This document shows, piece after piece, positions 585 to 49,370 of a stretch of DNA of 49,370 nucleotides. Position 1 is the stretch's first letter, and each line of letters starts with the position of its first letter. The notes beneath the pieces are model-generated. The model saw only the letters and a program-made list of their open reading frames with translations. It made no database searches and was not told where the DNA came from. The translations under genes were made by a program, and so were the position numbers. Source of the stretch: Chthonomonadaceae bacterium. Its GTDB lineage: Bacteria > Armatimonadota > Chthonomonadetes > Chthonomonadales > Chthonomonadaceae. The stretch lies in assembly GCA_027459665.1 (NCBI GenBank), contig DAIDHN010000028.1, forward strand, positions 1 through 49,370, given 5' to 3'.

Positions 585-1457
585 CTACCCCAGGCTGATG
601 ATCAGCCAGGTATACGCGCCCGCGGTCAGCTCTGCCGGGATAAGAACCAGTTCGCCGGTGGGGTTGAATGTCCAGCTGGAGCTGCCCTGAATGGTGTCGC
701 TGCCGGAGGGCACAGCGGTGAGGCCGTTGCTGCTGTAGTTTTTTAGCACAATGGGGCCGCCTGCACTGCCGGAGGGCAGATTGACCGTAGCGCCGGCAGG
801 CACGTTGTTGGCCACCAGCACAAACGGCATCTGCACTGCTGCCGGTATGTTGTAGACAGCAGGGCTGACTTTAGGGGTCCATACCGTCACCGGCCACGCG
901 CCATTGCCTGCTGCGGGCGCTGCCGCGATTGTGATGGTTTGGCCATTCTGCGTGAGAACCACTCCGCTGCCCGCCGCAAAGTTGATGCTGCCTGCCGCCG
1001 CCGTGCCCCCGTTCACGCTGATTCCGCTTACCCCCGTTCCACCGCCGGCAGAGATCGTGATGGTCTGTGCGCTTTGCGAAAGAGCAATGCCGCTGCCCGC
1101 GGCAAGCTGCACTGCGCCTGCAAGGGGGGCGCTGCCGCCAGCCGCAATGCTGCTTACCGAACCGACAGTGCGCAGGCTGGACTGCGGGTTCTGGCCGCCC
1201 AGCTGCCCTCCTGTTACCACCATGCTGTGCGGGCTGGCATTGCAGTACTGCAGGCTCACCATATCGCCGGGCGAGGGAGGGGTTTGCGGGCTGAAGGCAA
1301 CGCCTTGCAGGTACACCGCATTGCCGGCTGTATCGCGCGCACCTGCATCCAGGGTGCAGGTATGCATCACCGGGTCTACCGCGATCACCTGAGCCTGTGC
1401 AAACCGCCGGTCGGCACGGGCATGGTAACTTTGTTCGTCTATGTTTTTGATTAGCAT
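585..1457 (-). CDS. Phage tail-fibre-like protein with glycine/serine repeats
   Basis: Predicted 290-residue protein and the last gene of the minus-strand phage cassette. The start at 1457 is chosen because CCGGAG lies 8-10 nt upstream; a longer reading to 1496 lacks a good ribosome site. Residues 40-80 form a small beta-rich domain. The centre has two related segments, AAGSGIALSQSAQTITISA and AAGSGVVLTQNGQTITIAA, separated by glycine-rich linkers. This arrangement is common in phage tail fibres and spikes. The C-terminus (GPIVLKNYSSNGLTA and on) resembles the distal beta-structured tips of tail fibres. Adhesive function is inferred from composition and position. No catalytic motif or collagen-like Gly-X-Y run is seen. 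Confidence 0.65.
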   Translation of the reverse strand: MLIKNIDEQSYHARADRRFAQAQVIAVDPVMHTCTLDAGARDTAGNAVYLQGVAFSPQTPPSPGDMVSLQYCNASPHSMVVTGGQLGGQNPQSSLRTVGSVSSIAAGGSAPLAGAVQLAAGSGIALSQSAQTITISAGGGTGVSGISVNGGTAAAGSINFAAGSGVVLTQNGQTITIAAAPAAGNGAWPVTVWTPKVSPAVYNIPAAVQMPFVLVANNVPAGATVNLPSGSAGGPIVLKNYSSNGLTAVPSGSDTIQGSSSWTFNPTGELVLIPAELTAGAYTWLIISLG

Positions 1458-1517
1458 GTCAGAAATCTCCGGTAAAACCAGTCTGCTCTGCAACAACGAG
1501 CGATGCAGCGCCGAAAT

Positions 1518-2564
1518 CTATCTGCTCCGCAGCATCACCGCCGCATCTACCGTGCGGCTTTCGCTCGGCATGCTTTCAAGCATACGGCGCATCATGTCGA
1601 TTTTTACAATCGTACTGTTGTTTGTATAAAGGTAAACCTCCTTGTTCTGGTTGCTGGCAACGTTCAGCCTGCATGAGGTATGCATTCCTTCGCTAGTCTC
1701 GTTCATAATAGGTGTGCCTTTATGTTTAGTGCGATAGTAGGGCAGCTCCAAATCGGGCTTAACGCTCAGCAGGTACTCAGCCATTAGCTGCAGCACATCC
1801 ACCCACTCTTTCACATCCTTTTCAGTTCCATCCGGCAGGCGCACTTTTGCAGGCTTACTGCCCGTCAGATCACCGCAATTGTTCAAAAGCAGCCACTTCC
1901 CGTCCCCCTGGCTGGCTGGCAGTCTTACTGGCCGCTCGTAAGTTTTTGGCGGATCATGCACTGCTATCGGCGGGCTGGCAGGCGCAGGTTCGCAGGCGCT
2001 GCTTTCCAGCACAGCCAGCCGCGCTTCCAGGTCAGCCATGCGCTGCAGCAGCGCATTATCCGGCGCATCCTCCTCAAGTCCCCAGGCATGGGCGGCATCA
2101 AGGTGCATCAGAAGGTATTCGGCGGTCTCTAAGAGGCTGTCGAGTCGCAGATGCAGCTCATGCGGCTTAGCGTGTATGTTGCTGCTGAAATAATGCATCC
2201 ACTGCAGGCCATCGGTCACCCATACCTGCTCAATGGCGAATGTGCGCTGGTAATCGCCTATCTGCCGATCAAGAGCGCTGTCTTTCTGTATGCCTTTCAG
2301 CAATTTTGCCTCTACAATGGCAAAAACCTCCCGCCCCGGTTTTTTCAAAAGATAGTCTACTTTCCTGCTATCTTTCGTTTTTTCCACTTCCACCCGGTCG
2401 AGGTCGGCAATGTCCCACCCCAGGGCGCGCAGTAGCGGATCGATCAAAACGGCGCGCGTAATACTCTCGTTTTGCATCAACACGCTTTCTGCCTGGCGCG
2501 CAGATTTCTCAACAGAGCGTATGGCTTGCATCAGCGCAGCTAGCGGGCTGGAGGCAGAGGACAT
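1518..2564 (-). CDS. Orphan HsdR-N-like PD-(D/E)XK nuclease-domain protein
   Basis: Predicted 348-residue protein. Residues 35-130 resemble the N-terminal nuclease domain of type I restriction HsdR subunits: PLLRALGWD, then RVEVEK, then a PD-(D/E)XK core formed by D70 (KVDYLL) and E85-A-K87 (IVEAK), then WVTDGLQW. There is no helicase domain and no hsdM or hsdS nearby. Residues 165-190 look like a short coiled coil. The C-terminal part (about 225-345, KVRLPDGTEKDVKEWVDVL onward) is a separate domain I do not recognise with certainty. GGAG 7 nt before ATG supports the start. The gene lies between the large tail protein and the tail fibre, so it is probably cargo (a moron) rather than structural. 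A role against competing phages is inference only. Confidence 0.65.
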   Translation of the reverse strand: MSSASSPLAALMQAIRSVEKSARQAESVLMQNESITRAVLIDPLLRALGWDIADLDRVEVEKTKDSRKVDYLLKKPGREVFAIVEAKLLKGIQKDSALDRQIGDYQRTFAIEQVWVTDGLQWMHYFSSNIHAKPHELHLRLDSLLETAEYLLMHLDAAHAWGLEEDAPDNALLQRMADLEARLAVLESSACEPAPASPPIAVHDPPKTYERPVRLPASQGDGKWLLLNNCGDLTGSKPAKVRLPDGTEKDVKEWVDVLQLMAEYLLSVKPDLELPYYRTKHKGTPIMNETSEGMHTSCRLNVASNQNKEVYLYTNNSTIVKIDMMRRMLESMPSESRTVDAAVMLRSR

Positions 2565-2638
2565 GGGCAGACTCCATTACAGCAGGTATTTTGCTGCCTA
2601 TTGGCCATGCCGCGGCGCAATTCCTGCCTGGCGGCGCT

Positions 2639-5170
2639 TTATGGCACCACACAGCTGGCAATGCTGCCCGCAAAGGTCTGGTCCCAGCCCAGGCTGGTGT
2701 TGCTCGTCCATATGCGGTAATAGACCACCGTGCCAGATGCCAGCGCCGTTTGGGTGCGCCATCTGCTCACCCAGTTCAGCTGACCATAGGTTTGCCTGTC
2801 CCACATCATGCCGGGCGGCACGCGGTTAAAACTGCGGTAATCGCTGCTGGTGCGCTGCCAGAGCCAGTGGTTTGATGGGTCGGAGGGGAGAGCGCCTATG
2901 CTGAACCCCAGTATCATATGCTTGAACCCAAACATGCCATGATCCTGCCCCGCCAGACTTGCGGGCGGGCTGGTCCAAAGCAAATCAAATTCATAGGTAG
3001 TGTATCCCTCTGCATCCGGCCCCTGCTGCTGCCCAAAGCTTACGGCCAGGTCGGTTACTGCCCAGCCGCTTGCGCTGGCAGACCCTGCCCCGGCCAGAAT
3101 GCTCAGCACCACCGAAGGGATGCTTTCATGCCCCCGGTCGTCTATGGCAGTGACGTAGGCCCACACCTGCTGCCCTGCCGCAAAAGAACCCAGATTGTAG
3201 CTTGTGCTGGCTGGCCCAATGCCAAAGCCGTTTTGCGTAAACGGCCCGCTTTCGCCTGTGGTGGAAGAGTAGACATTGAACCCTGCCAGGTGCGAGGCCG
3301 GTGTGTAGGTTTGCCAGGCAATGCTCACCTGCACAGGCGAACCAGACGGGCTGCTGAGCTGTGTGACCTGCGGCGGGGGCAGCGTCTGCGCCACATACGG
3401 TATGTACTCGCAAACTCCACTCCAGTAACCGGGGGTGAAATGCTCTTCCACTGCCTGCAGGCTCCAGAGTTCGCCCTGCTGCTCTGCGCTGGTTTTTGCT
3501 GCAAACCCAGGCCGAAAGGCAGTGCGAAAGGCATGAATATCGCCCAGGCTGGTTTCAAAGCCGGGGGCGATTTCGCAGTGCACCTTTGCAATGCGCCAGG
3601 CATAGTCGCGCAGTATCTGCTGCGCCACCTTGAGGCGGAAGTCGGGCAGCACCGCCAGCGGGTCGGTGAGTATCACCCTGCGGTGTCCGTACCGCGCAAC
3701 GCTGGCAGGCTCCATTTCCACCAGGCTTCCCCCTGCCCCGTTTTGCGGCGCACCGCTGGCAATCTCCACCACATTGCGCAGGTCTTTGCCATCTGCAGTG
3801 CGCCGGGCAAAGCGCACATCGCCATTGCCATCGGGTGCGTTTATCAGCACGCGGCTGGGGCGGTACTGCATGTAGGGCGGCTCAGATGCCTGCAGTATTC
3901 CGTTTCCATCCGCCCAGAGGCTCCAGCCTATTTCGTGCCACAGCTCATACTGGTACCCCATCATGTTGTTGCTCTGCCCCTGCCAAAAGGGGTATTTGAA
4001 GCCGGTCAGCCCCGTTCCGCTGCTCCAGCCTATCTGGCTGGGTGCAAAGGGCGCATCGTATGCCGTGCCAGTGCCCCGCCAGAAAGCAGGCCCGGTGAGC
4101 AGGCTGTAGGCAATGTCTGCCAGTTCTGCAAAATCGTAAAGCGGCGTGAGGCGGACTTCGTTGTTGTCGGCAAGCTTTTTCAGAACATCTGTGGCCACTA
4201 CTTCTACCGTGCCCTCCGGCCTCCAAAGCATGCCGTCGCCCAGATAGCCGCAAAAACGGTTGCAGCCCAGCCAGGCTCCTGCGCTGCCGCCCAGTATCAT
4301 CACCTCATCCATGCCAATGGTTTGCGCCGCAGCACCGCCAACAGCAAGCAGCTTTACATAGCGCGCCTCCCGGTTCAGATCGCACAGGCAGAACTCGTTC
4401 ACGCAGGTTTCGTTCAGGTCGCCGCTCACGCCGTCCTGCCAGTCTGCATTCACCAGCCTGGCCGGAAAGCTGCTCCAGTTCACGGCATCGGGGCTGAGCA
4501 GCGCCTGCACGCTTTGCGGCAGGGTGCAAACCCCTACGTTCGATCCAAATCGCACGCCTACATGGTTCACGCTCTGAATGCTGCCCAGGTCGCACTGCAG
4601 GGCAAGCGTCTGCCCTGCCTGCAGCGCAAACAGCAGCGCGCCTGCAGGAACCGCCGTGCCCGGCCAGGAGGCAAGTGCGCCATCTGAGAGAAGTGCAGGC
4701 GTACCAACGGAGGGTGCTGCATCCGCCGTCCAGCTTTTGCCCGCACCCACATTGAAGGGCGCCCATACGCCTGCGCGAAACAACACGGGACGCGCCTCAT
4801 CGAGCAGCGCATCGTAAACGCCGCTGTTCTGGTTGTACGGGCTGCTCAGGCTGTTGGGAGAGAGCGCGCCTGCCGGGTCGGGCAGGGTAAATTCCAGCTG
4901 TGCCGGCTGGCGCAGTTTTCTGCGCAGCACCGGGTGGCTGCGTTCACTTGTTTGAGGCTGCACGGGCGAAAGAAACCACGTGCCGTTTCGCTGCATCCAG
5001 AGTTCGGTGAGCGCAGCGGCAGTACGGCTCTGCCGGGCAATGCGTGCGGCCCAGGCAATGAGAGGGCTAAGCAGGCCATTGATGCCTGTTCCGGTTAGAA
5101 GCCAGGGGTCGGGCATCACGCCGGGTCCTGCCTGGCTGCCGCTGTCGCCATATTGTGTAAGCGGAGGCAT
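2639..5170 (-). CDS. Large phage tail/baseplate protein with discoidin-like and FN3 domains
   Basis: Predicted 843-residue protein. The start at 5170 is supported by AGGAAACGAC immediately before ATG; the longer reading to 5218 runs into repeat DNA and has no ribosome site. Roughly residues 125-270 look like an F5/8-type (discoidin) carbohydrate-binding fold: LALQCDLGSIQSVNHVGVRF, SPDAVNWSSF, then EARYVKLLAVGG. About residues 560-660 form a fibronectin type III module (SPSGSPVQVSIAWQ, GFNVYSS, VWAYVTAIDDRG). The region between resembles phage tip or hub proteins. It is the largest gene of the cassette, sits downstream of the tape-measure candidate, and is the best candidate for receptor binding. 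The exact baseplate role is inferred from position. Confidence 0.65.
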   Translation of the reverse strand: MPPLTQYGDSGSQAGPGVMPDPWLLTGTGINGLLSPLIAWAARIARQSRTAAALTELWMQRNGTWFLSPVQPQTSERSHPVLRRKLRQPAQLEFTLPDPAGALSPNSLSSPYNQNSGVYDALLDEARPVLFRAGVWAPFNVGAGKSWTADAAPSVGTPALLSDGALASWPGTAVPAGALLFALQAGQTLALQCDLGSIQSVNHVGVRFGSNVGVCTLPQSVQALLSPDAVNWSSFPARLVNADWQDGVSGDLNETCVNEFCLCDLNREARYVKLLAVGGAAAQTIGMDEVMILGGSAGAWLGCNRFCGYLGDGMLWRPEGTVEVVATDVLKKLADNNEVRLTPLYDFAELADIAYSLLTGPAFWRGTGTAYDAPFAPSQIGWSSGTGLTGFKYPFWQGQSNNMMGYQYELWHEIGWSLWADGNGILQASEPPYMQYRPSRVLINAPDGNGDVRFARRTADGKDLRNVVEIASGAPQNGAGGSLVEMEPASVARYGHRRVILTDPLAVLPDFRLKVAQQILRDYAWRIAKVHCEIAPGFETSLGDIHAFRTAFRPGFAAKTSAEQQGELWSLQAVEEHFTPGYWSGVCEYIPYVAQTLPPPQVTQLSSPSGSPVQVSIAWQTYTPASHLAGFNVYSSTTGESGPFTQNGFGIGPASTSYNLGSFAAGQQVWAYVTAIDDRGHESIPSVVLSILAGAGSASASGWAVTDLAVSFGQQQGPDAEGYTTYEFDLLWTSPPASLAGQDHGMFGFKHMILGFSIGALPSDPSNHWLWQRTSSDYRSFNRVPPGMMWDRQTYGQLNWVSRWRTQTALASGTVVYYRIWTSNTSLGWDQTFAGSIASCVVP

Positions 5171-5190
5171 GTCGTTTCCTTTCTGCCATC

Positions 5191-5410
5191 TGCCAGGCAG
5201 CGCGTGAAGCCGTCTCACCCCGGCCTTATGCCACGGGGTTGAAACCCCGTTCTGACAGGCAAAAGTCCACTGCGTGGACTAAATGCACAATGCGCCATGC
5301 TGTTCTGCAGGCCCACTGCCAGGCAGCGCGTGAAGCCGTCTCACCCCGGCCTTTGGCCTGCCGCTCTCCCGGGCGCGCCTTACGGCGCTGAAAGAGGCGC
5401 AGAAGGCTGG
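5191..5410. repeat. Compound intergenic repeat: 37-bp direct repeats plus palindromes
   Basis: Gap between the tape-measure candidate and the large tail gene. An exact 37-bp direct repeat (TGCCAGGCAGCGCGTGAAGC and following) occurs at 5191-5227 and 5317-5353. Between the copies lie ACGGGGTTGAAACCCCGT at 5233-5250, the reverse complement of the repeat at 65-82 and 8491-8511, and a perfect hairpin AGTCCAC-TGC-GTGGACT at 5264-5280. GCGCAGAAGGCTGGT at 5398-5412 matches the beginning of the window. The structure is typical of dispersed chromosomal repeats rather than phage regulatory DNA. Confidence 0.8.
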
Positions 5411-5427
5411 TGCAGGCTGTTTACTTT

Positions 5428-6246
5428 CTACACCGGGCGCTGCATATCGTACCAGGCGCTGGTTCGGCTGGCCGCCCCTGCGCTGGTTGCGCTGCTAATC
5501 TGGTTTTGCAGCGCCTGCTGCACGCCGTCTACGTACACATGCACTGCAGGCGCCTGCTGCGGGGGCGTTACTCCCGGCATCTGCCACCATGCCAGCCCAT
5601 ACTGCCCCGCCTGAGTGCCGGCAGGCAGGGCAAGGCTGGCGCTTTCACGGTAGCGGTAGGCGCTGTAATCCATGCCGGATGGACTGTTGTAGAGCGCAGG
5701 GTCGTACTGTTTGCTGTTTGCCAGCGGGTCGGAGTGATGATGAAACAGGCCGCCCAGCAGGTTCAGCCCCAGCCCTGCCACCGCACCCAGCGGCCCGCCC
5801 AGAGCAAAACCGGTTTCCGCGCTGCCCAGCGCGCCTGCCAGGGTGACGCCGCTGTTCACCCCCGAAGCAAGCGCATTCCAGGCCGCCCCTGCCTCATTGC
5901 CGTAATGAAACTGCAGCAGAGCATGGGGCAGGGAGGCCGGTATCTGACTGCCCCGGTGGTGCAGCGCAGAGAGATGACTGCCGTACAGCGCATCGTGCGT
6001 GGTGCGAACATGGTGGTAGGGTGCAGAGTGAAAAGAGAGATGACCGCTGCCCAAAGCTGCGACTTCGGGGGAAGAGCGGGTCTGCACCGCCTGCTGCAGA
6101 CTGCCAAACAGGGGCTGCAACAGCTCTGCCCAGCGGGAGGTAAGCTGCTCCAGCAGGTTGATGTCGGTATGTGCGTACGAAGTGAAGCCAGCCGTCTCAC
6201 CAGGCAGTGCTGTGCGCAGGCTGCTGCTGTTCTCTTTCCTGAGCAT
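5428..6246 (-). CDS. Short tape-measure-like phage tail protein (candidate)
   Basis: Predicted 272-residue protein. The start at 6246 follows GAGGAATGGAACC; an earlier in-frame ATG lies at 6261. The N-terminal half is helical with repeated Leu/Gln patterns (INLLEQLTSRWAELLQPL, FGSLQQAVQ). Around residues 130-165 there is a glycine/alanine-rich hydrophobic stretch (GSAETGFALGGPLGAVAGLG) like the membrane-active segment of tape-measure proteins. The C-terminal half is low-complexity, Ala/Gln/Pro-rich. It follows two overlapping chaperone-like frames and precedes the large tail protein, the canonical tape-measure position. At 272 residues it is much shorter than usual, implying a very short tail or another function. 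Confidence 0.45.
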   Translation of the reverse strand: MLRKENSSSLRTALPGETAGFTSYAHTDINLLEQLTSRWAELLQPLFGSLQQAVQTRSSPEVAALGSGHLSFHSAPYHHVRTTHDALYGSHLSALHHRGSQIPASLPHALLQFHYGNEAGAAWNALASGVNSGVTLAGALGSAETGFALGGPLGAVAGLGLNLLGGLFHHHSDPLANSKQYDPALYNSPSGMDYSAYRYRESASLALPAGTQAGQYGLAWWQMPGVTPPQQAPAVHVYVDGVQQALQNQISSATSAGAASRTSAWYDMQRPV

Positions 6247-6418
6247 GGTTCCATTCCTCAAAAAGCGTATTCAGAAAAACGGGTGATCGGGTTTGCAAAC
6301 CGTGCAGCAGCGCCTGCCGCCAGGCGTCTGCACCGGGCCTGGGGTCGCTGAGTATGGCCTCTGCACGGGCAAGCCATGCCCTCACTGCAGTAGCCCACCA
6401 GGGTTCATGCTCGCTCAT
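6197..6418 (-). CDS. Small tail-assembly-chaperone-like protein (distal frame)
   Basis: Predicted 73-residue protein starting MSEHEPWWATAVRAW, with CTGGAATTGAT before the ATG at 6418. It overlaps the tape-measure candidate by about 50 bp. The same frame is open upstream to about 6742, across the end of the preceding 234-residue gene, and is exactly the -1 frame relative to it. Paired overlapping chaperone genes joined by -1 frameshifting (the lambda G/GT type) usually sit just before the tape measure, as here. The protein could therefore be made independently, as a fusion extension, or both. Helical Trp/Ala-rich sequence gives no further functional clue. Confidence 0.5.
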   Translation of the reverse strand: MSEHEPWWATAVRAWLARAEAILSDPRPGADAWRQALLHGLQTRSPVFLNTLFEEWNHAQEREQQQPAHSTAW

Positions 6419-6477
6419 ATCAATTCCAGTGAAGCGCATGTGCAGCGGGTCTGTGCCAGTGCGAGCCGCCAGGCTGC

Positions 6478-6486
6478 TCAGGGGCA
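6478..6486 (-). other. Candidate -1 recoding site at the chaperone stop codon
   Basis: Read on the minus strand, the 234-residue gene ends TGC CCC TGA. A ribosome with CCC in the P site could slip one base back onto an identical CCC, replacing the stop with CTG and entering the open -1 frame that encodes the 73-residue protein. It is not a canonical XXXYYYZ heptamer, so it is only a candidate. Confidence 0.25.
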
Positions 6487-7182
6487 GCAGTCTGGCGGCA
6501 AGGTAGGGATTTGCGCCTCTGAAACGCTGTCGAGGCGGGCATAGCATTCTATCAGGCATTCGCGCATATTGTCTGGGCAGTCGCCTGCCTCCCTGCCGCT
6601 TTCCCATATGCGCTCGCTTCTGTTGTGTGCATGCCGCACCGCGCAGGCCAGCGTCTCCAGCGTCATCTGCAGGGCGAGTTCTGCATGCATGCGCTGTGCG
6701 CGCCACGCCTCCACACATCCCGCCACCCTTTCCTGCGAGCAATGGCGCATGCCGAGGGCATGTGCTTCCTCCCGTTTGTGCCGGGCATGCTGCTGCCGCT
6801 GTTTTTCCACCTCATGGCATTTCTGCTCCCACTCTTCCATCTGCGCCAGCTGCCCGCCGCCCTGCACAGGGGATGCCGGCAGCGGCGGCACCTGAAACAG
6901 CATTTCTGCCTCGCGCAGCGCTTCCTGTTCGGCATACTCAGCCAGCCATTCGCACTGCACCGTTTCGTTCTGTTCCTCAAAATACTCCCACAGCGCTGCG
7001 TAACCCGAATGGCCGGGCCGCCAGGGGCGCATCTGCCGTGCTGCATTTCTCTGTGCAGTTTCACGGCAGCAGGCCCGCTGCAGCGCATTCAGCGTCTGCA
7101 CCCACACTTCCCTACCATCTGGCAAGGTACACAGCGTACCAATACGAGTGGGAAATTCCACCGTTTTCTGCTCATGCTGCAC
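6478..7182 (-). CDS. Tail-assembly-chaperone-like phage protein
   Basis: Predicted 234-residue protein with a GTG start at 7182 preceded by AGGAGG and a 5-nt spacer. It overlaps the end of the tail-tube-like gene by 11 bp. The N-terminus (GTLCTLPDGREVWVQTLNAL) is a compact alpha/beta segment. The remainder is charged and strongly helical (EWEQKCHEVEKQRQQHARHK) with many cysteines. Position between tail tube and tape measure, plus an open -1 frame across its 3-prime end, fits the gpG-type tail assembly chaperone. No sequence motif proves it. An ordinary tail completion or minor structural protein is the alternative. Confidence 0.5.
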   Translation of the reverse strand: MQHEQKTVEFPTRIGTLCTLPDGREVWVQTLNALQRACCRETAQRNAARQMRPWRPGHSGYAALWEYFEEQNETVQCEWLAEYAEQEALREAEMLFQVPPLPASPVQGGGQLAQMEEWEQKCHEVEKQRQQHARHKREEAHALGMRHCSQERVAGCVEAWRAQRMHAELALQMTLETLACAVRHAHNRSERIWESGREAGDCPDNMRECLIECYARLDSVSEAQIPTLPPDCCP

Positions 7183-8371
7183 GCCATCCTCCTGGTCCTC
7201 CGCTTGCGCCCTGGCCGCCCAGCGCTGCGGTATTGAAACTGTTTTGCAAAGTGATTTGTACAGAAAACCCTGCAGAGCTGTCTACCTGCGCAGTCCAGTC
7301 TGCATTCAGCAGCATCGCTCCTTCGGCAAACGGCAGCGGAGTGCGTTCAAAGCACAGATTCGGCACCCACACCTCCATCCATGCCGCCTGGCCGGAGGTT
7401 CCCAGCAGAGGGCCGGTTACCCGAAAGTTGAGCGAAACCGGCTGAAACGCCAGCGATGCTGCAGGCAGGCTCATATCTTCGTAGAGCGCCACCAGTCTTC
7501 CCGACACCGCCAGCCTTCCGCCTACCGCCGCCCCCGGATCGTAGCCGCTGCCTGCGGTTTGGGGCAGGCTGTAGGCTCTTTCAATGCGAATGCGGGTGCC
7601 GGGCAGCATCTGTGCATTCAGCGCCTGTCCGCCTGCGGCAAGCCATGCACCGCCATTCTGCGACCCCGGTCCAACGCCCGCAAACGCCAGCGCCCCGCTG
7701 CCTCCCGGCAAGTCTACATAGGCGGGGGCTGTGGTACGCGACACTGTTTTTACGCCATCGCCCCCCAAAGCGGGGGGCAGCAGCGCCGGCGTACTGCCAA
7801 ACAGCGTGCTTACACTGCTGCCGGCTGCATTCGGGTAGGTATTGGGCAGCTGCCGGCAGGCCGCCAGTTCCATTGCTGCTGTAACTGAGGTTCCAAAATG
7901 AAGATCGAGCCTCTCTACAACCGCCCCTGCACTGAGTCGGGAATAGAGACCGTCGCCCATGTCTTCCTCTATGGTGAATGAGGGAGCAGTGCTGCCTGGC
8001 AGAAAAACATGCCGGTATACTGCAGGCGACTGGCTGACGGAAGCGCTCTGCACCAGAGTTTGTATATCCCGCCCCAGTGCGCCCATCAATGGGTAGTGCA
8101 GGTTTTCGGGGTCGGCATGCCAGGTAAGCGTGCCACTATATGTTTTGCCCAGCATCAAAATGCGCCGCTGTTCCACCCCGCCATCCACCTCCGGCTTCGC
8201 CTGCAGCGTGGGGCTTCCCGTCATGCCGCTGCCGGGCAGCAGCGCAAAATAGCGCAGGGGGTTTGCACTGCCGCCTATGGTGTAGGGGCTGGCAGAGCCG
8301 TTGAGAGGCACTGTGCAGAACTGGCTTTCTACAGCCATGCCTGCCGCCCCGGTAAGGCCAGTGATAGCCAC
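7172..8371 (-). CDS. Phage tail-tube-like major tail protein
   Basis: Predicted 399-residue protein. A GTG start at 8371 is preferred because AAGGA lies 8 nt upstream; the longer ATG reading from 8413 has no ribosome site. Diagnostic-looking segments are GKTYSGTLTWHADPENLHYP with LMGALG, then YRHVFLPG, SFTIEEDMGDGLYSRLSAGA and VERLDLHFG. These match the layout of siphovirus-type tail tube proteins: a scaffold strand set, an H-x-F hairpin, and a Y..L.G..V..L motif. The C-terminal half adds an extra beta domain (FRVTGPLLG, EVWVPNLCFE). Such proteins polymerise into the tail tube. It is followed by the chaperone-like pair. Confidence 0.65.
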   Translation of the reverse strand: MAITGLTGAAGMAVESQFCTVPLNGSASPYTIGGSANPLRYFALLPGSGMTGSPTLQAKPEVDGGVEQRRILMLGKTYSGTLTWHADPENLHYPLMGALGRDIQTLVQSASVSQSPAVYRHVFLPGSTAPSFTIEEDMGDGLYSRLSAGAVVERLDLHFGTSVTAAMELAACRQLPNTYPNAAGSSVSTLFGSTPALLPPALGGDGVKTVSRTTAPAYVDLPGGSGALAFAGVGPGSQNGGAWLAAGGQALNAQMLPGTRIRIERAYSLPQTAGSGYDPGAAVGGRLAVSGRLVALYEDMSLPAASLAFQPVSLNFRVTGPLLGTSGQAAWMEVWVPNLCFERTPLPFAEGAMLLNADWTAQVDSSAGFSVQITLQNSFNTAALGGQGASGGPGGWRAA

Positions 8372-8490
8372 TATGCTTTTCCTTTCTATCTGATTTCGTA
8401 CCCGCCCAGCCATTCTGCCCAGTAGTTCAACCCACCCATCACGGGCAGCAGCTGTTCACAGATTCACCTCACCCACCTGCCCTACTGCTC

Positions 8491-8511
8491 CACGGGGTTT
8501 CAACCCCGTGG
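8491..8511. repeat. Palindromic interspersed repeat, third copy
   Basis: CACGGGGTTTCAACCCCGTGG lies in the 168-bp gap between the tail-tube-like gene and a small membrane protein gene. It is the third copy of the palindrome found at 65-82 and 5233-5250. No promoter or T-tract accompanies it, so it is not a convincing terminator. Confidence 0.75.
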
Positions 8512-8539
8512 CAAAGGCCGGCGGGGGCGGCAGGCTGCC

Positions 8540-8809
8540 TCATGGCCGTTCAGCATGATCGCGCAGCAGAGGGGCGGCAACCCGAAGCAGCATGTCCAGC
8601 TTCTGGTCGATGCGCGCCAAACGCTCACGCATCTCCTGCAGCGCCTGCGCCTGCCGGTCGCTTTGCCCGCGTGCGCGCTCTTCCTCTTCTGCAGCAGCAA
8701 TCCCCCTCTCTTCCAGCCGGGTAATGCGCCCTGCAAAGCGAAGCAGCGCCGCAACCCCTGCTGCAAACAGGCTCACCGCAGCAGCTGCGGCCATCACATC
8801 TGCCGGCAT
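8540..8809 (-). CDS. Small membrane protein with coiled coil (holin-like)
   Basis: Predicted 89-residue protein. The start at 8809 follows AAGGAG with an 8-nt spacer. Residues 4-22 (DVMAAAAAVSLFAAGVAALL) form one transmembrane helix. After it comes a charged coiled coil with heptad-like Leu/Ile spacing (ITRLEERGIAAAEEEERARG, LQEMRERLARIDQKLDML). One membrane helix plus a cytoplasmic coil is the pattern of XhlA/haemolysin-XhlA-type holin-associated proteins. It is the second such gene in the cassette; the first, at 12725-12943, sits beside the lysozyme gene. Function is inferred from architecture only. Confidence 0.5.
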   Translation of the reverse strand: MPADVMAAAAAVSLFAAGVAALLRFAGRITRLEERGIAAAEEEERARGQSDRQAQALQEMRERLARIDQKLDMLLRVAAPLLRDHAERP

Positions 8810-8842
8810 TCTTTTCTCTCCTTTCACCCTGCATGCGCAACG

Positions 8843-9115
8843 CTAGTACCAGGCAACAATAGTCACCGAAACGCCTGCATTTGTGAGAACGCTCCCCGTC
8901 GCCCAGACCTTGCTTACCGCGACGGGGTTGTATCCCTGCTGCGCCGGTATAGTCACCACATCGCCGCCGACGGTAGTCACCTTCAGCGTGCAGGCAGCGC
9001 TGCAGAGCAGCCCCCGTGCAAACGGCACGCCGTTTATGCCGGCAGCAGCCAGTGCGGTATCGCTGGGGGTAATGGCCCAGGCGCGCTGCGCAGGGTTATC
9101 GGCTGGCACATGCAT
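8843..9115 (-). CDS. Small phage virion-associated protein
   Basis: Predicted 90-residue protein, translationally coupled to the upstream gene through a TGATG overlap at 9113-9117. The sequence (GVPFARGLLCSAACTLKVTT, VGGDVVTIPAQQGYNPVAVS, KVWATGS) resembles a recurrent family of small phage proteins: a short beta-sandwich with a G-G-D-V-V-T turn and a conserved KVWATGT-like strand, usually encoded near capsid genes. A decoration or head-completion role is possible but not shown. Confidence 0.5.
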   Translation of the reverse strand: MHVPADNPAQRAWAITPSDTALAAAGINGVPFARGLLCSAACTLKVTTVGGDVVTIPAQQGYNPVAVSKVWATGSVLTNAGVSVTIVAWY

Positions 9116-9408
9116 CAGTCGTTCTCCTTTGCAGCCGCCTTTTTACCGGCTGGCTTCTCGTCTGGTTTCCCGGCAGCGGGTGCAGCCTGCACGCTGAACC
9201 CAGGTTCGGCATCCATGCCTTTTGCCGGGTACGCAGGCAGGCCGAGCAGGCGCGGGTCGGAGATGCCTTCAACCTCCCGCACCTCCAGCGCCTTTTCGCC
9301 CTCTACGCCTTCGGGCAGATTGTATACCATCGTCCAGTAATCCCGCTGCCACACATGCCCCGGCGTTCTGAACTGCCTGTATCCGCTTATACAGCGTACT
9401 GCGTACAT
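9115..9408 (-). CDS. Small phage protein downstream of capsid
   Basis: Predicted 97-residue protein. The ATG at 9408 is preceded by a near-perfect AGGAGGCGAT and lies 8 bp beyond the capsid stop; upstream in-frame codons would overlap the capsid gene. The N-terminal part contains aromatic residues and a single Cys (YAVRCISGYRQFRTPGHVWQ). The C-terminus is a Lys/Ala-rich disordered tail (GKPDEKPAGKKAAAKEND). Its position directly after the capsid gene suggests a head-tail joining or head-completion role, but no family is recognised with confidence. Confidence 0.5.
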   Translation of the reverse strand: MYAVRCISGYRQFRTPGHVWQRDYWTMVYNLPEGVEGEKALEVREVEGISDPRLLGLPAYPAKGMDAEPGFSVQAAPAAGKPDEKPAGKKAAAKEND

Positions 9409-9416
9409 ATCGCCTC

Positions 9417-10346
9417 CTAGCTGGTCGCGTTGCTGCCGTATGCCATCTGCCACAGCCCGTAACCCTGCGCGTATCTGCCGCGCACGGTGAACCGGTACTG
9501 CTCCTTTATGCGTGCTTCAGGCATATCCATATCGGTTTCCATCGTGATGGGCACATCGCTTCGGCTCTGGATGAAGATCGGCTTCACCTCGCGGCTGGCA
9601 TCGAGCAGGAACCACTGGTAGCCGGTGATGTAGGGATTCACCACCACCTTGTACCTGCCCATGAAGTAGTTGCGGTAGTTGGTAGCCGGCACGCCTGCGG
9701 TTCCGGTTTCGCCCGGTTCGACTACCACATCGCTGCTGACCAGGTTCCATGCCCTGCGAGCCAGCAGCGGCCCCACCACCAGGGTATCGGGGACGATGTG
9801 CAGCGGGATGCCCTTGTCGTCGACGTAGCTCATCATGGTGGTAGCAGCGGCTTCGAGAGCCGAATCAGACAGGCTGGCTGTGCTGATGTTGCTCTGTGTG
9901 GGGCTACTGCCCTCCTGGTGGCTTGCGTTGAAGAAGTACTGCCCGTCGTAGGCGTACTGGCTGAAGCCGTTTGTGAGGCCGGTGAAAGCCAGCTGGTTCC
10001 AGTGCCTCACCGCTTCGGCGGCCAGTTCTCGTGCCCGTATCATCAGCAGCCCGTACTGGTCGTCTTCGAGAGTGCGCCGGTCTATGGCCAGGTCAGCCTT
10101 GTAGAGAATGTCGGAAAGCTGGTAGCTGTCTTCGCGCACGCTCTGTTCTACCGGCTCATCGTTGAACTGCTTCATCACCGCGCCGCGGCCCAGCCATGCG
10201 TACTTCTGCACCGGCAGGGTAGTGGGCAGCTCGGTCGCGATGGTTCGCCAGTCGGCTTTTTCGTTTGCGGCGATGTATGCGCCGTTGAATTCGGTTTTGA
10301 TGCCTGCCTGCGTAAGCAGCAGGATGTCACTGGTAACTACAGCCAT
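9417..10346 (-). CDS. Major capsid protein, Mu gpT-like
   Basis: Predicted 309-residue protein with AAGGAG upstream of ATG. The sequence follows the Mu gpT head-protein pattern: an N-terminal segment with WRTIATELPTTLPVQKYAWLG, then DLAIDRRTLEDDQYGLLMI, then DGQYFFNASHQEG, IPLHIVPDTLVVGPLLARRA, and a final ITGYQWFLLDASREVKPIFI. The length matches this HK97-fold family (about 300 residues). It assembles the icosahedral head. Upstream lie the S49 protease with nested scaffold and the DUF2190-type gene, the order seen in Mu-like head modules. The ORF is intact, with no sign of decay. Confidence 0.85.
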   Translation of the reverse strand: MAVVTSDILLLTQAGIKTEFNGAYIAANEKADWRTIATELPTTLPVQKYAWLGRGAVMKQFNDEPVEQSVREDSYQLSDILYKADLAIDRRTLEDDQYGLLMIRARELAAEAVRHWNQLAFTGLTNGFSQYAYDGQYFFNASHQEGSSPTQSNISTASLSDSALEAAATTMMSYVDDKGIPLHIVPDTLVVGPLLARRAWNLVSSDVVVEPGETGTAGVPATNYRNYFMGRYKVVVNPYITGYQWFLLDASREVKPIFIQSRSDVPITMETDMDMPEARIKEQYRFTVRGRYAQGYGLWQMAYGSNATS

Positions 10347-10357
10347 TTATGGTCTCC

Positions 10358-10771
10358 TTAGTGAACGGCGTTGTCGATACGAATGCGCAGGTCGCTTGCG
10401 TCTTCCACCTTGATGGCATAGCCCACCAGCTGGTTGCTGGTTGCTGTGGTGGTGAGCGTTTCATCGTCTGCTGCATAGAACGCTGCGCCCACATTGGTTT
10501 GCGCTGTAGCCACCGATGTAGCAAACACATAGCTGCCGGTTTTGTACACCCTGCAGGTAACCGAGCCAGCCGCGCCGGTGTTGGAGACCGTTTCGTAGGC
10601 CACGCCGACAAAAATATCGGTAGCAGTGCCGCTGCGGGCCGGCCTTGCGTAGCCAGTTGCGTCTACGCTGACCAGGGTGCCCTTGTTGATGGTAACGCCC
10701 GCCTGCACCAGGTATTCCTGCAGCAGACCGTCTTTTCTCTGCGCCTCGCGGGGCGCTGTAGATGCCGCCAT
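10358..10771 (-). CDS. DUF2190-type capsid-associated protein
   Basis: Predicted 137-residue protein coupled to the protease gene by a TAATG overlap at 10769-10773. The sequence shows the DUF2190 pattern: KDGLLQEYLVQAGVTINKGT, VDATGYARPA, IFVGVAYETV, CRVYKTGSYVF and QLVGYAIKVED. Members of this family are capsid decoration or head-fibre proteins encoded between protease and major capsid genes in many tailed phages, which is exactly the position here. The fold is predicted to be all-beta. Function as capsid stabiliser or decoration is family-based inference. Confidence 0.75.
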   Translation of the reverse strand: MAASTAPREAQRKDGLLQEYLVQAGVTINKGTLVSVDATGYARPARSGTATDIFVGVAYETVSNTGAAGSVTCRVYKTGSYVFATSVATAQTNVGAAFYAADDETLTTTATSNQLVGYAIKVEDASDLRIRIDNAVH

Positions 10772-11256
10772 TATTTAGCCTCCTGGTTTTTCATATTGCG
10801 CGCAAACTCGTCTTGTTTAGCCTGCGAAGTAAAGCCCATTTTGAGCGCCATTTCCCGCTGCGCCGGTGCAAGCAAGTCCCATTCTCTGGTTTGCGACTGG
10901 CTTCCGCCGTCTATGATGCTGGCATTTGCCGCCGCTGCCGAAGCCCTCTGCGCGCCCGAAGCCTCTGTGGTATCGAATTTGGCGTCTGCCTCGGCTCGCC
11001 ATGCATCTCGCAGTTCCAGCACGCTGTCGGGGTCGAGCCTGTCTACCTGTGCGCCGATACGTACTCCCCGTTCAGCGCCGTGTGCGCGCACTGCCTCCCG
11101 TTTCGCCTCTGCCCTCAGCTGCTCTTCGTACCTCCTGCCCATAGCCGCCTGCGCGATCAGCGTTTTGATTTCGGCTGCATCGGCGATTTTGGCTTCCTTC
11201 ATCGCCGCCAGCAGGTTCTGCTGCTCCGGTGTAACCTGGGGCATCTCGTTCTCCAT
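10771..11256 (-). CDS. Nested in-frame scaffold protein (internal start in protease gene)
   Basis: An in-frame ATG at 11256 inside the protease gene is preceded by AAAGGAGACCATTTCT, essentially the same strong ribosome site used by the capsid gene (AAGGAGACCATAA). It would yield a separate 161-residue copy of the C-terminal helical region. Lambda (C/Nu3) and Mu (I/Z) both make their scaffold this way, as a nested product of the protease gene. The signal is read directly from sequence; production of the short protein is inferred. The C-terminus ends near TSQAKQDEFARNMKNQEAK. Confidence 0.7.
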   Translation of the reverse strand: MENEMPQVTPEQQNLLAAMKEAKIADAAEIKTLIAQAAMGRRYEEQLRAEAKREAVRAHGAERGVRIGAQVDRLDPDSVLELRDAWRAEADAKFDTTEASGAQRASAAAANASIIDGGSQSQTREWDLLAPAQREMALKMGFTSQAKQDEFARNMKNQEAK

Positions 11257-12105
11257 AGAAATGGTCTCCTTTGCATTGGCCTTCTGCCTGATGCTGCTCA
11301 CAGCCTGCGCCACAGTGCAAACCCTGTCGATCAGGCCAGCCTTCACCGCCTGCTCTCCTACGAAGACGCGTGCGGTAGTGATCTCATCCAGTTGTTCCCT
11401 GCTGAGGCCGCGCGCCGTTTTAACAGCGGCAATGAAGTGGCTGTTGATTTCATGCAGCATGCGCTGCGTTTCCTGCAGGTGTTCGGGGGTAACGGGCGCA
11501 CCGTCGATGCCGATGCCCTTGTGCGGGCCGGTTGCCAGCACATGCACCTTAACGCCTTCGTTTTCTGCCATTTTGCTGGTATCTTCCAGCACCGTGATGG
11601 TGCCGATGCTGCCCACCTGCGCAGTGGCGTTGCAGCAGACCATATCCGCCTGCGAAGCCACCCAGTAGGCAGCGCTGCAGCCCATGTCTTCGATGTATGC
11701 TGCAACCGGCTTGATATTCGCGGCCGCCTTCACCTCGGCCGCCAGGTCGGAAGTACCGCTCACCTGGCCGCCCGGGCTGTCTATAGAGAGCATGATGGCC
11801 CTCACGTCGCTGTTTTGTGCAGCGTGTGCAAGCGCTGCGCGCACTGCGGTGGTAGACACACTGGAGAGCCACCAGTAGCTGCCTTTGGTCATCACGCCTC
11901 GCATGGTGAGCACAGCCACGCCGCCTGCTGCTATTTTGTAGCCCGGCGTTTTGGCAGCAGGGGGTTTGTCAGCAGCCTGCTGCTCTGCCGAAGCAGCCGG
12001 CTGCAGCAGCGCGTTTGCGCCCCGCAGCGGCTCTATCATCCAGCAGGCATCTATGGTAGTGAGCGAAAAATTCAGTGAGCTGGCTTGCTGCATGGCGGTA
12101 TCCAT
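10771..12105 (-). CDS. S49 (SppA/ClpP-fold) prohead protease with C-terminal scaffold region
   Basis: Predicted 444-residue protein. The ATG at 12105 (MERMDTAMQQASS region) follows GGAAAGG; ATG 12093 is an alternative, and the upstream frame is shadow of the lysozyme gene. Residues 55-270 form the S49 serine-protease domain: GVAVLTMRGVM, SIDSPGGQVSG, and DMGCSAAYW with the presumed catalytic serine near residue 144, followed by GSIGTITVLED. The C-terminal 160 residues, beginning MENEMPQVTP, are charged and helical, as in phage scaffolds, and have their own internal ribosome site. The protease would mature the prohead and remove the scaffold. The gene overlaps the lysozyme gene by 34 bp; no portal gene lies between them. 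Confidence 0.85.
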   Translation of the reverse strand: MDTAMQQASSLNFSLTTIDACWMIEPLRGANALLQPAASAEQQAADKPPAAKTPGYKIAAGGVAVLTMRGVMTKGSYWWLSSVSTTAVRAALAHAAQNSDVRAIMLSIDSPGGQVSGTSDLAAEVKAAANIKPVAAYIEDMGCSAAYWVASQADMVCCNATAQVGSIGTITVLEDTSKMAENEGVKVHVLATGPHKGIGIDGAPVTPEHLQETQRMLHEINSHFIAAVKTARGLSREQLDEITTARVFVGEQAVKAGLIDRVCTVAQAVSSIRQKANAKETISMENEMPQVTPEQQNLLAAMKEAKIADAAEIKTLIAQAAMGRRYEEQLRAEAKREAVRAHGAERGVRIGAQVDRLDPDSVLELRDAWRAEADAKFDTTEASGAQRASAAAANASIIDGGSQSQTREWDLLAPAQREMALKMGFTSQAKQDEFARNMKNQEAK

Positions 12106-12728
12106 CCTTTCCAGCGGTTTCGGTCCACCTGCCCTTCCACACCGGGCACTGCGCCGCTGCAGGAATACTGCCAGCATGTCCAGTCGCTCCATCCTGCAGG
12201 CAGGTCTGGCTGCTCTACGTTGTAATGCGCCACCCAGAGCGGGTGTCCGCCAAAGCCGTCGCCCAGCCACTGCGTGAGCCACGATGGCGAGCCGTAGAGA
12301 ACAGGCAGCCTGCCGGTTTCAGCGTGAATCACTGCGCTGAACTGTTCCACCATGCTGCGAATGTGCTGCCTGCCCAGCGTGTGCGCCAGATTGGGCTGTG
12401 CGGGGTTGTTCTCGAGGTCGAGCGCTATGGGCAGGGGGTTGTGCAGAAAGTGTTGTTTGACGCTGCGAATGGCTTGCAAAAAAAAGTGTGCCTGCTCCGC
12501 GCCGCTCTGCTGCAGCTCTGCAAAGTGGTAGGCGCTCATTTGCACGCCTCCCTCCCCGCCCTGCTGCATGTTGCGCAAAAAGGCGGGGTCGGTGAAGGCT
12601 GTGCCCTGTGCTGCCTTGGCATAGGCGAACCGGATGCCTGCCGCATGCACCCGTTTCCAGTTCACCATGCCGTTGAGATGGCTCACATCAATGCCTTCGC
12701 TGCAGGCATCGGTCAGCGGGTGGTTCAT
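12072..12728 (-). CDS. GH25 lysozyme (phage endolysin)
   Basis: Predicted 218-residue single-domain GH25 muramidase, which cleaves peptidoglycan between N-acetylmuramic acid and N-acetylglucosamine. Landmarks are GIDVSHLNG (D14) near the N-terminus, WKRVHAAGIRFAYAKAAQG, the catalytic LDLEN (D104, E106), RLPVLYGSPSWL, PLWVAHYN and the C-terminal CWQYSCSG ... VDRN. The length is that of the catalytic domain alone, with no cell-wall-binding repeats and no signal peptide, so it depends on a holin. The gene starts in a 4-bp ATGA overlap with the upstream holin-like gene and overlaps the protease gene at its 3-prime end. Confidence 0.9.
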   Translation of the reverse strand: MNHPLTDACSEGIDVSHLNGMVNWKRVHAAGIRFAYAKAAQGTAFTDPAFLRNMQQGGEGGVQMSAYHFAELQQSGAEQAHFFLQAIRSVKQHFLHNPLPIALDLENNPAQPNLAHTLGRQHIRSMVEQFSAVIHAETGRLPVLYGSPSWLTQWLGDGFGGHPLWVAHYNVEQPDLPAGWSDWTCWQYSCSGAVPGVEGQVDRNRWKGWIPPCSKPAH

Positions 12729-12943
12729 TTGCCCTGCAGCTTTTCTGCGCCCTGCGCCACCACCTGGTCTACCCGGCTTTGCAGCGCCTGGTCTGCCTGC
12801 TGCACCACTGCCTGCAGCGCCTCGTTCTGGCGTGCAGAAAGCGCTGCAATGCGCACCTGGGCCGGCCGCACGTAGAGCGCGTGATGCAGAAAAGTGATCA
12901 GCGCGTTTGCTGCCAGTGGGATGAAAATGCTTTTCCAGTCCAT
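12725..12943 (-). CDS. Holin-like small membrane protein
   Basis: Predicted 72-residue protein. The ATG at 12943 follows GAGGAGGCACAACTT. Residues 5-25 (SIFIPLAANALITFLHHALY) form one transmembrane helix. The rest is an Ala/Gln-rich amphipathic helix (QNEALQAVVQQADQALQSRV). The 4-bp overlap with the lysozyme gene and the small single-helix design suggest a holin or pinholin-type partner. No pore-forming family signature is recognised. It is the first gene of the phage cassette in transcription order. Confidence 0.55.
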   Translation of the reverse strand: MDWKSIFIPLAANALITFLHHALYVRPAQVRIAALSARQNEALQAVVQQADQALQSRVDQVVAQGAEKLQGK

Positions 12944-13077: not shown

Positions 13078-14025
13078 CTACTCGTGGAACACATTCTCCC
13101 GATGCCACTCCAGCGCCTCTGGCGAAGGGGCATATTCCGGGAGATATGGCAAATGCAGTTTGCTGTCATGCTGCACATAGTCTGTGCGGTGCTGCAGGGA
13201 AGAACAGACTATGATATTGTACTGATTGTCTATGGTAAACACTCCTCTGTCAAAACCCCAGTGATGGTTCTGGCACAGTGCAATGCCGTTGCATGGATGG
13301 TCGTTATGAAACTGTGAGTGGGGAAGTATGTGCGCCGCCTGAACCAGACTGGAGGTTTCTGTACGAAGCGAGAGCGCACATACTGAACACGCCTCGCTGT
13401 ACAGACTGCGGATCACCCTGGGAAACAACGCGCTGCGAAGATATGCTTCATCCCCCCTTGTCTCGTGTACCTGTGTCTGAATGCGTGGAAATGGACCGGG
13501 ATGATTGATGAGCTTCTGCAGCTCTTTTTGCAGCAACTCGTCTGGTTTGGGCAGTTTTATATCTGACTGCTGTTGCGGGAAATAGACGTGAAGCAGAGCA
13601 GACCGCAGCGCATTGCGTGCAACAACATCCTGCAGCAGGTTCCAGAGCTCAGGCTCCAGTGCAACAGAATACCCTTCATCCTGCAGTCTTTTAAACGACA
13701 CAGTTGCTGCCGCCCATTCCTCTGGTGTCACTTTGGCATATTGGCGCATGGGAAGCCAGAAGCCTTCTGAAACAAGATGACGAAACGGGTTCAGCATGGC
13801 GCAATGCCAGCCTTTCGGCTGAAGCTCGTGCCATATATTCTTGAACAGCAGCAACAACTGCGGGCTGACTTCAATGCAGTTCTGTTGAATCAAACCGCAC
13901 TCAATTCCCTGCAACACCGCCAGAAGCAAAATCGGCTTATGAGGGGCAAAGCCTCTTGCATAGTGCTTGTTCTGCCTCAGGCTGGTAAAAGCCGTTATGT
14001 ACTTTTGCAGTGTGGTGGTTTGCAT
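13078..14025 (-). CDS. Probable type IV restriction endonuclease, SBD-like N-terminus plus HNH
   Basis: Predicted 315-residue protein with two parts. Residues 1-150 (APHKPILLLAVLQGIE, LNPFRHLVSEGFWLP, LRSALLHVYFP) follow the layout of the sulfur-binding domain of ScoMcrA-type enzymes, which bind phosphorothioate DNA. Residues 195-275 are an HNH nuclease: C213-x-x-C216, AAHI (H232), N246, LCQNHH (H254/H255) and FDRGVF. Proteins of this architecture cut phosphorothioate-modified or other modified DNA. Phosphorothioate specificity here is inference from sequence layout. No dnd or methylase genes lie nearby. It follows a small gene (14053-14265) and a separate promoter, so it is probably an independent defence cargo beside the phage cassette. 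Confidence 0.7.
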   Translation of the reverse strand: MQTTTLQKYITAFTSLRQNKHYARGFAPHKPILLLAVLQGIECGLIQQNCIEVSPQLLLLFKNIWHELQPKGWHCAMLNPFRHLVSEGFWLPMRQYAKVTPEEWAAATVSFKRLQDEGYSVALEPELWNLLQDVVARNALRSALLHVYFPQQQSDIKLPKPDELLQKELQKLINHPGPFPRIQTQVHETRGDEAYLRSALFPRVIRSLYSEACSVCALSLRTETSSLVQAAHILPHSQFHNDHPCNGIALCQNHHWGFDRGVFTIDNQYNIIVCSSLQHRTDYVQHDSKLHLPYLPEYAPSPEALEWHRENVFHE

Positions 14026-14052
14026 CGAGGAATTGGGCGTTTGAAATCTAAA

Positions 14053-14265
14053 TTAATGCTCAGTCATTTCTGCATTGGCTTCGTCAGAGGTAATCCACCT
14101 GGTGAAGGTCTCCAATGTTACCTTATAGAATTTGCGATTGTGTGCAGGCTTCCAGAGAATGCTGCTCGGCTTTATGCGCAGTGTGCCAATCTGCGAACAC
14201 TCTTCATCTGCAATTACATGATCTTCATACACTGGCCGAACGAAAGTGTTTTTGTAGGTGGGCAA
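14053..14265 (-). CDS. Small TTG-initiated protein in the HNH operon
   Basis: Predicted 70-residue protein. A TTG at 14265 is preceded by GCGGAGGATACC (GGAGG, 5-nt spacer), a much better start than any upstream codon. The sequence (YEDHVIADEECSQIGTLRIK, PSSILWKP, FYKVTLETFTRWI) looks like a compact beta-hairpin domain with a conserved-looking K-P-S-x-I-L-W motif; no named family is recognised. The gene ends 27 bp before the HNH nuclease gene and shares its promoter. It may therefore be a partner, regulator or immunity-type factor for the nuclease, but this is inference from context. Confidence 0.6.
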   Translation of the reverse strand: MPTYKNTFVRPVYEDHVIADEECSQIGTLRIKPSSILWKPAHNRKFYKVTLETFTRWITSDEANAEMTEH

Positions 14266-14311
14266 GGTATCCTCCGCGGGAACAACAATTTTACAACAAT
14301 AAGCAATATAC

Positions 14312-14317
14312 ATTATA
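14312..14317 (-). promoter_or_regulatory. Consensus -10 element for the HNH operon
   Basis: On the minus strand GGTTATAATG contains a perfect TATAAT about 46 bp before the TTG start. A -35 match is poor (TTTTGT, 17-nt spacing). The surrounding 14266-14360 stretch is AT-rich compared with its neighbours, as expected for a promoter. It separates the HNH unit from groEL. Confidence 0.5.
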
Positions 14318-14430
14318 ACCGATAGCAGAGATACACAAAATTCAGAAGCTCCTGACAAAGTTCAGCATGCATTTGCTTTAGCGGCTACGGCCAGCCAACT
14401 CCCCTGAAATGGCAGCGCCTGACCGCGGGC

Positions 14431-14468
14431 AAAAAAAATCCCCCGGCGATGAATAGTCATGCCGGGGG
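14431..14468 (-). terminator. Rho-independent terminator of groES-groEL
   Basis: Read on the minus strand, CCCCCGGC ... GCCGGGGG forms an 8-bp GC stem with a 13-nt loop, followed by ATTTTTTTT. It lies 22 bp beyond the groEL stop codon. Confidence 0.9.
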
Positions 14469-14489
14469 AAGCTGCACGGGGCGTGCAGG

Positions 14490-48378: not shown

Positions 48379-48943
48379 ATGGCAGACGGACAGGTTCCGG
48401 AAACTACGGCGAGTGCAGGAAATGAGACCGGCGCAGCCCCAAGCGGAAGCAGCGGAAGCGAGAAGTTTGACGCGGAGTATGTGAGGCAGTTACGCGAGGA
48501 GGCTGCAAAACACCGCACTGAGAAGGCAGCCGCGCAGGCTGAGCTCAAAAAGCTACAGGACGCGCAGTTATCCGACGCAGAGCGGCAGAGCAAGCGCCTG
48601 GCGGAGCTGGAGGCACAATCGCAGCGGTTTGACGCTGACAAGAGAGACTTGCAGGCACGCCTGACAGTTGAGCGAGAGGCTCGCAAGTTGGGTGTCATTG
48701 ATGAGGATGCGGCATATAGGCTGCTGGACAGCAGCAAATTGAAATTTGACGACGATGGTCGGCCGACTAACGCGGGCGATCTGCTTAAGGAGCTCGTGCG
48801 GGAACGCCCATATTTAAGCGGCCAGGAGCCGTGGAGACTCAGCAGGTACGTTTTCACGCTCGCAGCTGAACGATATTACGTTTTACAACGCGAATCGCGA
48901 GGCAATCCTGGCTGCTGTGCGCGACGGACGCATAACAGACTGA
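48379..48943 (+). pseudogene. Frameshifted phage scaffold protein gene
   Basis: Start at 48379 (MADGQVPETTASAG) after GGAGGGAATAC. The N-terminal part is Gly/Ser/Ala-rich. A long coiled coil follows (YVRQLREEAAKHRTEKAAAQ, RLAELEAQSQRFDADKRDLQ), then KLGVIDEDAAYRLLDSSKLK and LLKELVRERPYL, the usual layout of DUF4355-type capsid scaffolds. Beyond about 48820 the frame stops looking scaffold-like; the +1 frame continues with a proper scaffold end (FSRSQLNDITFYNANREAIL, AAVRDGRITD) and stops at 48943. A one-base insertion or two-base loss near 48811-48830 explains this. Unshifted reading would end at 48951. It could also be a sequencing error. Confidence 0.75.
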
Positions 48944-48966
48944 CTGGCTGACCAGGGAGACCTGGC

Positions 48967-49370
48967 ATGGCAAATATTACCACTACGGTAGCGACCCCGT
49001 TTCTACCGCAGATATGGGCGATGGAGGCTCTGAACGTTTTACGAGCCAACATCACCATTGCTCATATCTGCGCACGGGACACCGACTATGACCCCGGTTG
49101 GCGAGGGAAGGTGCTCAACATTCCCTACCCGGGCACATTTACGGCACAGAGCAAGGTTGAGGGCAACATGGTTGGCCTGCAGACCCCGGCTAATGCCGCT
49201 ACTGTGCAGGTTACACTCAGCCGGCACGAGACAGTTGACTTCATTTTGCCTGCATGTATGGTTTACCCAGTGTTTGTATTGCCTTGCAAGAATACTTCAA
49301 CACGCTTTTGCAAAGATTGCAAGCACTTTTTACAGCAACATGCAGTTTTTTTCAAAAAAAGTGCGGCAAA
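48967..49370 (+). CDS. Major capsid protein (P22-gp5-like), partial and apparently interrupted
   Basis: The ATG at 48967 follows AGGGAGACCTGGC. The first 93 residues (TTVATPFLPQIWAMEALNVL, RDTDYDPGWRGKVLNIPYPG, QVTLSRHETVDFI) match the opening of P22-coat-like capsid proteins: an N-terminal helix, a bracketing strand, then the H-E-T-V-D-F-I start of the long helix. From about 49246 the frame stays open, but the sequence turns Cys/Lys/Phe-rich (LPACMVYPVFVLPCKNTSTR, FCKDCKHFLQQHAVFFKKSA), unlike any capsid. An insertion or rearrangement is likely. An inverted repeat GCACTTTTT / AAAAAGTGC lies at 49323-49364. The gene is cut by the window end. Confidence 0.7.
   Translation, partial: MANITTTVATPFLPQIWAMEALNVLRANITIAHICARDTDYDPGWRGKVLNIPYPGTFTAQSKVEGNMVGLQTPANAATVQVTLSRHETVDFILPACMVYPVFVLPCKNTSTRFCKDCKHFLQQHAVFFKKSAA

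Follow-up and report, generated by a model that had tools for sequence, protein, structure and literature searches.

EcoWI, Ksp11411I, Bsp305I, Mae9806I, and Sau43800I were previously described as phosphorothioate-dependent SBD-HNH enzymes, in which an N-terminal sulfur-binding domain (SBD) is joined by a variable linker to a C-terminal HNH domain with CxxC/CxxH (PMC7461809). The active enzymes carry the motif KPzzLL..PF..L..W, and their genes are not placed beside dnd; less than 3.6% of such enzymes are encoded near dnd genes (PMC7461809). ScoMcrA (5zmm) also has an SBD and an HNH domain, with an SRA domain between the two, while only the SBD of Hga (SBDHga, 8h0l) has been solved. The SBD is regarded as a winged helix (PMC10853773). 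HNH domain structures are available for TagI (6ghs) and VcaM4I (6yex), and TagI relies on an SRA domain, not an SBD, to read its target (PMC10853773).

The window analyzed here is a stretch of 49,370 nucleotides of a Chthonomonadaceae bacterium (GCA_027459665.1, contig DAIDHN010000028.1). It contains an SBD-HNH nuclease gene in the following surroundings.

13078..14025, minus strand: SBD-HNH nuclease of 315 aa with an ATG start; SBD at about residues 4-152, then a linker, and HNH at about residues 196-315
14053..14265, minus strand: 70-codon ORF, an orphan of no known family, with a TTG start at 14263-14265
14271..14275, minus strand: GGAGG ribosome-binding site of the small ORF, with a spacer of 5 nt to the TTG
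14312..14317, minus strand: TATAAT, a putative -10 element for the small ORF and the nuclease gene, with a weak -35
14430..14470, minus strand: probable terminator of groESL, a strong hairpin downstream of groEL with a run of eight T behind it

The nuclease is a diverged, complete copy of an already described enzyme class. We consider, at a probability of about 0.85, that it is a stand-alone modification-dependent (type IV) restriction endonuclease directed against foreign phosphorothioated DNA, of the EcoWI/SprMcrA kind. As in the EcoWI-type enzymes, an N-terminal SBD is followed by a linker and an HNH domain with CxxC/CxxH, and the gene does not adjoin dnd genes. In contrast to them, the nuclease is only 24-26% identical to the E. 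coli plasmid copies, and an orphan ORF lies upstream of its gene.

The SBD-like N-terminus and the HNH domain were already noticed in the sequence-only reading of this DNA, and both were borne out by sequence and fold. In the sequence search, residues 5-145 matched SBDHga1 (8h0l) with an E-value of 4.9e-10, and HNH_2 (PF13391) was found in the C-terminus with an E-value of 7.6e-11; TagI was also matched in the HNH part. With a profile of the nuclease and nine relatives (28-44% identity), the values reached 4.6e-22 for SBDHga and 1.9e-6 for ScoMcrA. An AlphaFold model built on ten sequences (pLDDT 79) was then compared with solved structures. Residues 4-152 showed the SBD fold and aligned best with the Hga SBD on phosphorothioate DNA (8h0l; VIA Z 17.4, rmsd 2.8 Å, 145 aligned residues), which is the closest solved SBD at 28-29% identity, followed by SprMcrA (Z 13.4) and ScoMcrA (Z 13.3). 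Residues 196-315 shared the HNH domain fold of TagI (Z 13.6) and VcaM4I (Z 12.7). The next matches after the SBD and HNH structures were ORC/Cdc6 winged-helix domains (Z 8), which agrees with the view of the SBD as a winged helix.

The NCBIfam model NF045808 (PT-DNA_restrict), the sole NCBIfam match of all ten aligned members, scored 89.6 bits on the nuclease (E 1.9e-25). This is below the curated cut-off of 180, so the nuclease falls outside the curated EcoWI-like set. Unlike ScoMcrA, the nuclease has no SRA domain. The stretch between its two domains (residues 153-195, partly of low model confidence) is about 45 residues long and too short for an SRA, which indicated that the nuclease is not of the SBD-SRA-HNH (ScoMcrA) type. 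The nuclease is a clean, diverged example of a stand-alone SBD-HNH enzyme and represents no new kind of defence. To our knowledge, no enzyme of this type has been studied experimentally in this lineage.

The residues of the sulfur pocket were mapped on ScoMcrA via the profile alignment. The pocket His, basic residue, and Pro of ScoMcrA are all present in the nuclease, where H116 corresponds to H29, R117 to K30, and P165 to P80; A168 corresponds to H83. The ScoMcrA mutants R117K and A168H still bind (PMC6224610). The Tyr lid of ScoMcrA (Y164) is replaced by N79, and this position is poorly conserved among SBDs and has been linked to specificity (PMC6224610). Since the lid is thought to shape sequence specificity, the Asn found here could help to map the residues that read the bases beside the sulfur. 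Moreover, the KPzzLL..PF..L..W motif is intact, with H29, K30, P80, F81, L84, and W90 all found, and the HNH domain retains H232, N246, H254, H255, and D259 as well as all CxxC/CxxH zinc ligands. The structure check proposed earlier for the SBD pocket returned both the fold and the kept His, Lys, and Pro. The targeting of phosphorothioate DNA, first raised as a possibility from the letters of the DNA, is well supported as a prediction by sequence, modelled fold, and pocket residues, in an enzyme class that is already known.

We infer that the nuclease binds phosphorothioate DNA, with some sequence specificity, and that it cleaves such DNA and restricts it in vivo. In the proposed mechanism, the N-terminal winged-helix SBD would capture a phosphorothioate linkage by its Rp sulfur, within a short sequence context, in a pocket lined by H29, K30, and P80. 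The C-terminal HNH domain would break the DNA near the bound site. DNA of phage, plasmid, or chromosomal origin would be cut if it came from a dnd+ or ssp+ donor. The DNA of the host itself would be spared because no phosphorothioation genes were detected: DndC, DndD, and SspD had no match in the host genome (3.67 Mb, 99.86% complete), and the sole gene of the PAPS-reductase family has 247 codons and is CysH-sized. Taken together with the rarity of dnd linkage, both among the relatives and in the published survey (PMC7461809), the lack of such matches in the host leads us to expect a stand-alone type IV role here.

The origin of the gene is a separate question. A phage late-gene cluster lies downstream of the nuclease gene (585-12943, minus strand) and encodes a Mu gpT-family major head protein, an S49 head protease, and an endolysin. 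Copies with 76-83% identity to this head protein occur in four further genomes of the same bacterial family. In two related phage loci, the terminase lies upstream of the protease, and in one of them the portal is also there. Both are missing upstream of the protease in the window, where the nuclease gene and groESL stand in their place, and this absence indicated a probable truncated prophage remnant. The nuclease gene also has an atypical codon use, which is consistent with a horizontal arrival, and a lower G+C. It is conceivable, though unlikely, that the nuclease is prophage cargo serving phage exclusion or a degraded leftover, an origin that would be compatible with the type IV mechanism. 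Against this origin, the gene has an unbroken reading frame and retains all catalytic residues, and the loci read around the nuclease relatives, which carried no family annotation, showed no evident phage head or tail cluster. Furthermore, no relative of the nuclease was found in viral contigs by a scan with short exact peptides, and the same kind of scan of genome contigs returned a distant archaeal HNH alone; because of the short exact peptides, the silence of the viral-contig scans is weak evidence for the nuclease and the small protein alike.

Two further observations were made in the phage regions. A 337-residue protein encoded inside the late-gene cluster (1518-2531, minus strand) gave a weak match to HSDR_N, the N-terminus of the type I R subunit (E 1e-4, below the cut-off), and no PADLOC match. 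In addition, a second, different phage head module starts at 48379-49370 (plus strand) with a scaffold gene (PF06810) and a probable capsid gene, and runs off the contig end.

A second explanation is that the nuclease reads another modification, or is a dnd-linked effector that needs phosphorothioation of the host rather than a stand-alone type IV enzyme. Some relatives do lie beside such genes. In a relative's genome (G090), dndC was identified directly upstream of the SBD-HNH nuclease gene (L033; PADLOC DndC, E 4e-125). The two genes overlap (L033:1150-3436) and form an operon of a modification gene and an SBD nuclease, while DndD had no match in this genome, which is 72% complete. On a Chlorohelix plasmid (L042), dndB, dndE, and dndD stand beside the SBD-HNH copy, and on a Picosynechococcus plasmid (L041) a phosphorothioation-associated methyltransferase does. 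These neighborhoods suggest that a few members of the family may act together with Dnd and not against it, and the Dnd-linked wHTH-SAD-HNH nucleases have been argued to act with Dnd modules (PMC10853773). However, G090 was the only one of the 12 genomes with SBD-HNH relatives in which DndC was found, the host of the nuclease itself has no detected DndC, DndD, or SspD, and the nuclease carries no SRA domain. A dnd-linked role, or the reading of another modification, is hence improbable for this nuclease, and we retain the stand-alone type IV reading.

The sequence-only reading also described a 70-residue gene with a GGAGG-TTG start, and both ORFs are located as claimed. The small ORF lies on the same strand, 27 bases upstream of the nuclease gene. 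After groEL, the hairpin had a minimum free energy of -33.5 kcal/mol over a 70-nt stretch (z -4.8), and its position together with the eight T indicated that the small ORF and the nuclease gene probably form their own transcription unit, apart from groESL. A perfect TATAAT occurs 36 bases upstream of the GGAGG. A promoter shared by the pair, as first proposed, is plausible from this element, although its -35 is poor and it was absent from the list of the promoter scanner. No Shine-Dalgarno sequence is recognizable in front of the nuclease ATG (CCCAATTCCTCG-ATG), so expression of the nuclease may depend on the upstream ORF.

To evaluate the small ORF, the 464 bases separating groEL from the nuclease gene were subjected to dinucleotide shuffles. 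An ORF of at least 70 codons appeared in 24% of them, and one with GGAGG or AGGAG before the start in 0.5%. The codon score was positive in the annotated frame only, at +9.4, whereas the remaining five frames gave -19 to -34. Given this 0.5% chance and the codon score, the small ORF is probably translated.

The small protein had no family at a meaningful score in Pfam, PADLOC, NCBIfam, or PHROGs, no solved structural relative was found, and the best fold match of its single-sequence model (pLDDT 63) was not better than E 0.9. No relative was found in 291 genomes of the phylum, 72,556 plasmids, or 50,697 phage records, nor in viral contigs by the scan with short exact peptides. A weak candidate in one genome (G098, E 0.003) was rejected, as it was a wrong-frame match overlapping a 484-residue carbamoyltransferase-like ORF. 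Two viral-contig matches to KPSSILWKP were also rejected, as the two ORFs are almost identical in sequence and bear no relation to the small protein.

The pair had been proposed as an undescribed two-gene defence module, with the 70-residue protein as an obligate partner that would regulate or inhibit the nuclease or set its specificity. The 27-base gap on one strand, the strong ribosome site on the small ORF only, and the probable separate transcription unit would fit such a pairing. However, a neighborhood survey of the kind proposed with it showed no similar small ORF near six plasmid SBD-HNH relatives or near ten phylum relatives, the latter being full or partial, with two loci ending soon upstream of the nuclease so that the upstream comparison is incomplete there. 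The small protein thus never accompanies an SBD-HNH nuclease outside this locus, nor does it occur anywhere in the genomes searched. The partner claim thus fails the refutation test set for it and is not supported, and an obligate partner is improbable. Also improbable is a newly arisen regulator or inhibitor of the nuclease confined to this lineage, perhaps acting via translational coupling. Most likely, the small ORF is a lineage-specific gene with no connection to the nuclease; at most, it would serve as an accessory leader that co-expresses the nuclease. It is not a conserved partner.

Among the relatives, two SBD-HNH proteins (L030:478-1449 in G011 and L031:9238-10254 in G001) have NHA..FR in place of NHH..FD, which suggests that they are possibly inactive as nucleases and could still bind. 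The same two further genes, of about 670 and 438 aa, adjoin the SBD-HNH relative in both loci, as if they belonged to a shared mobile unit.
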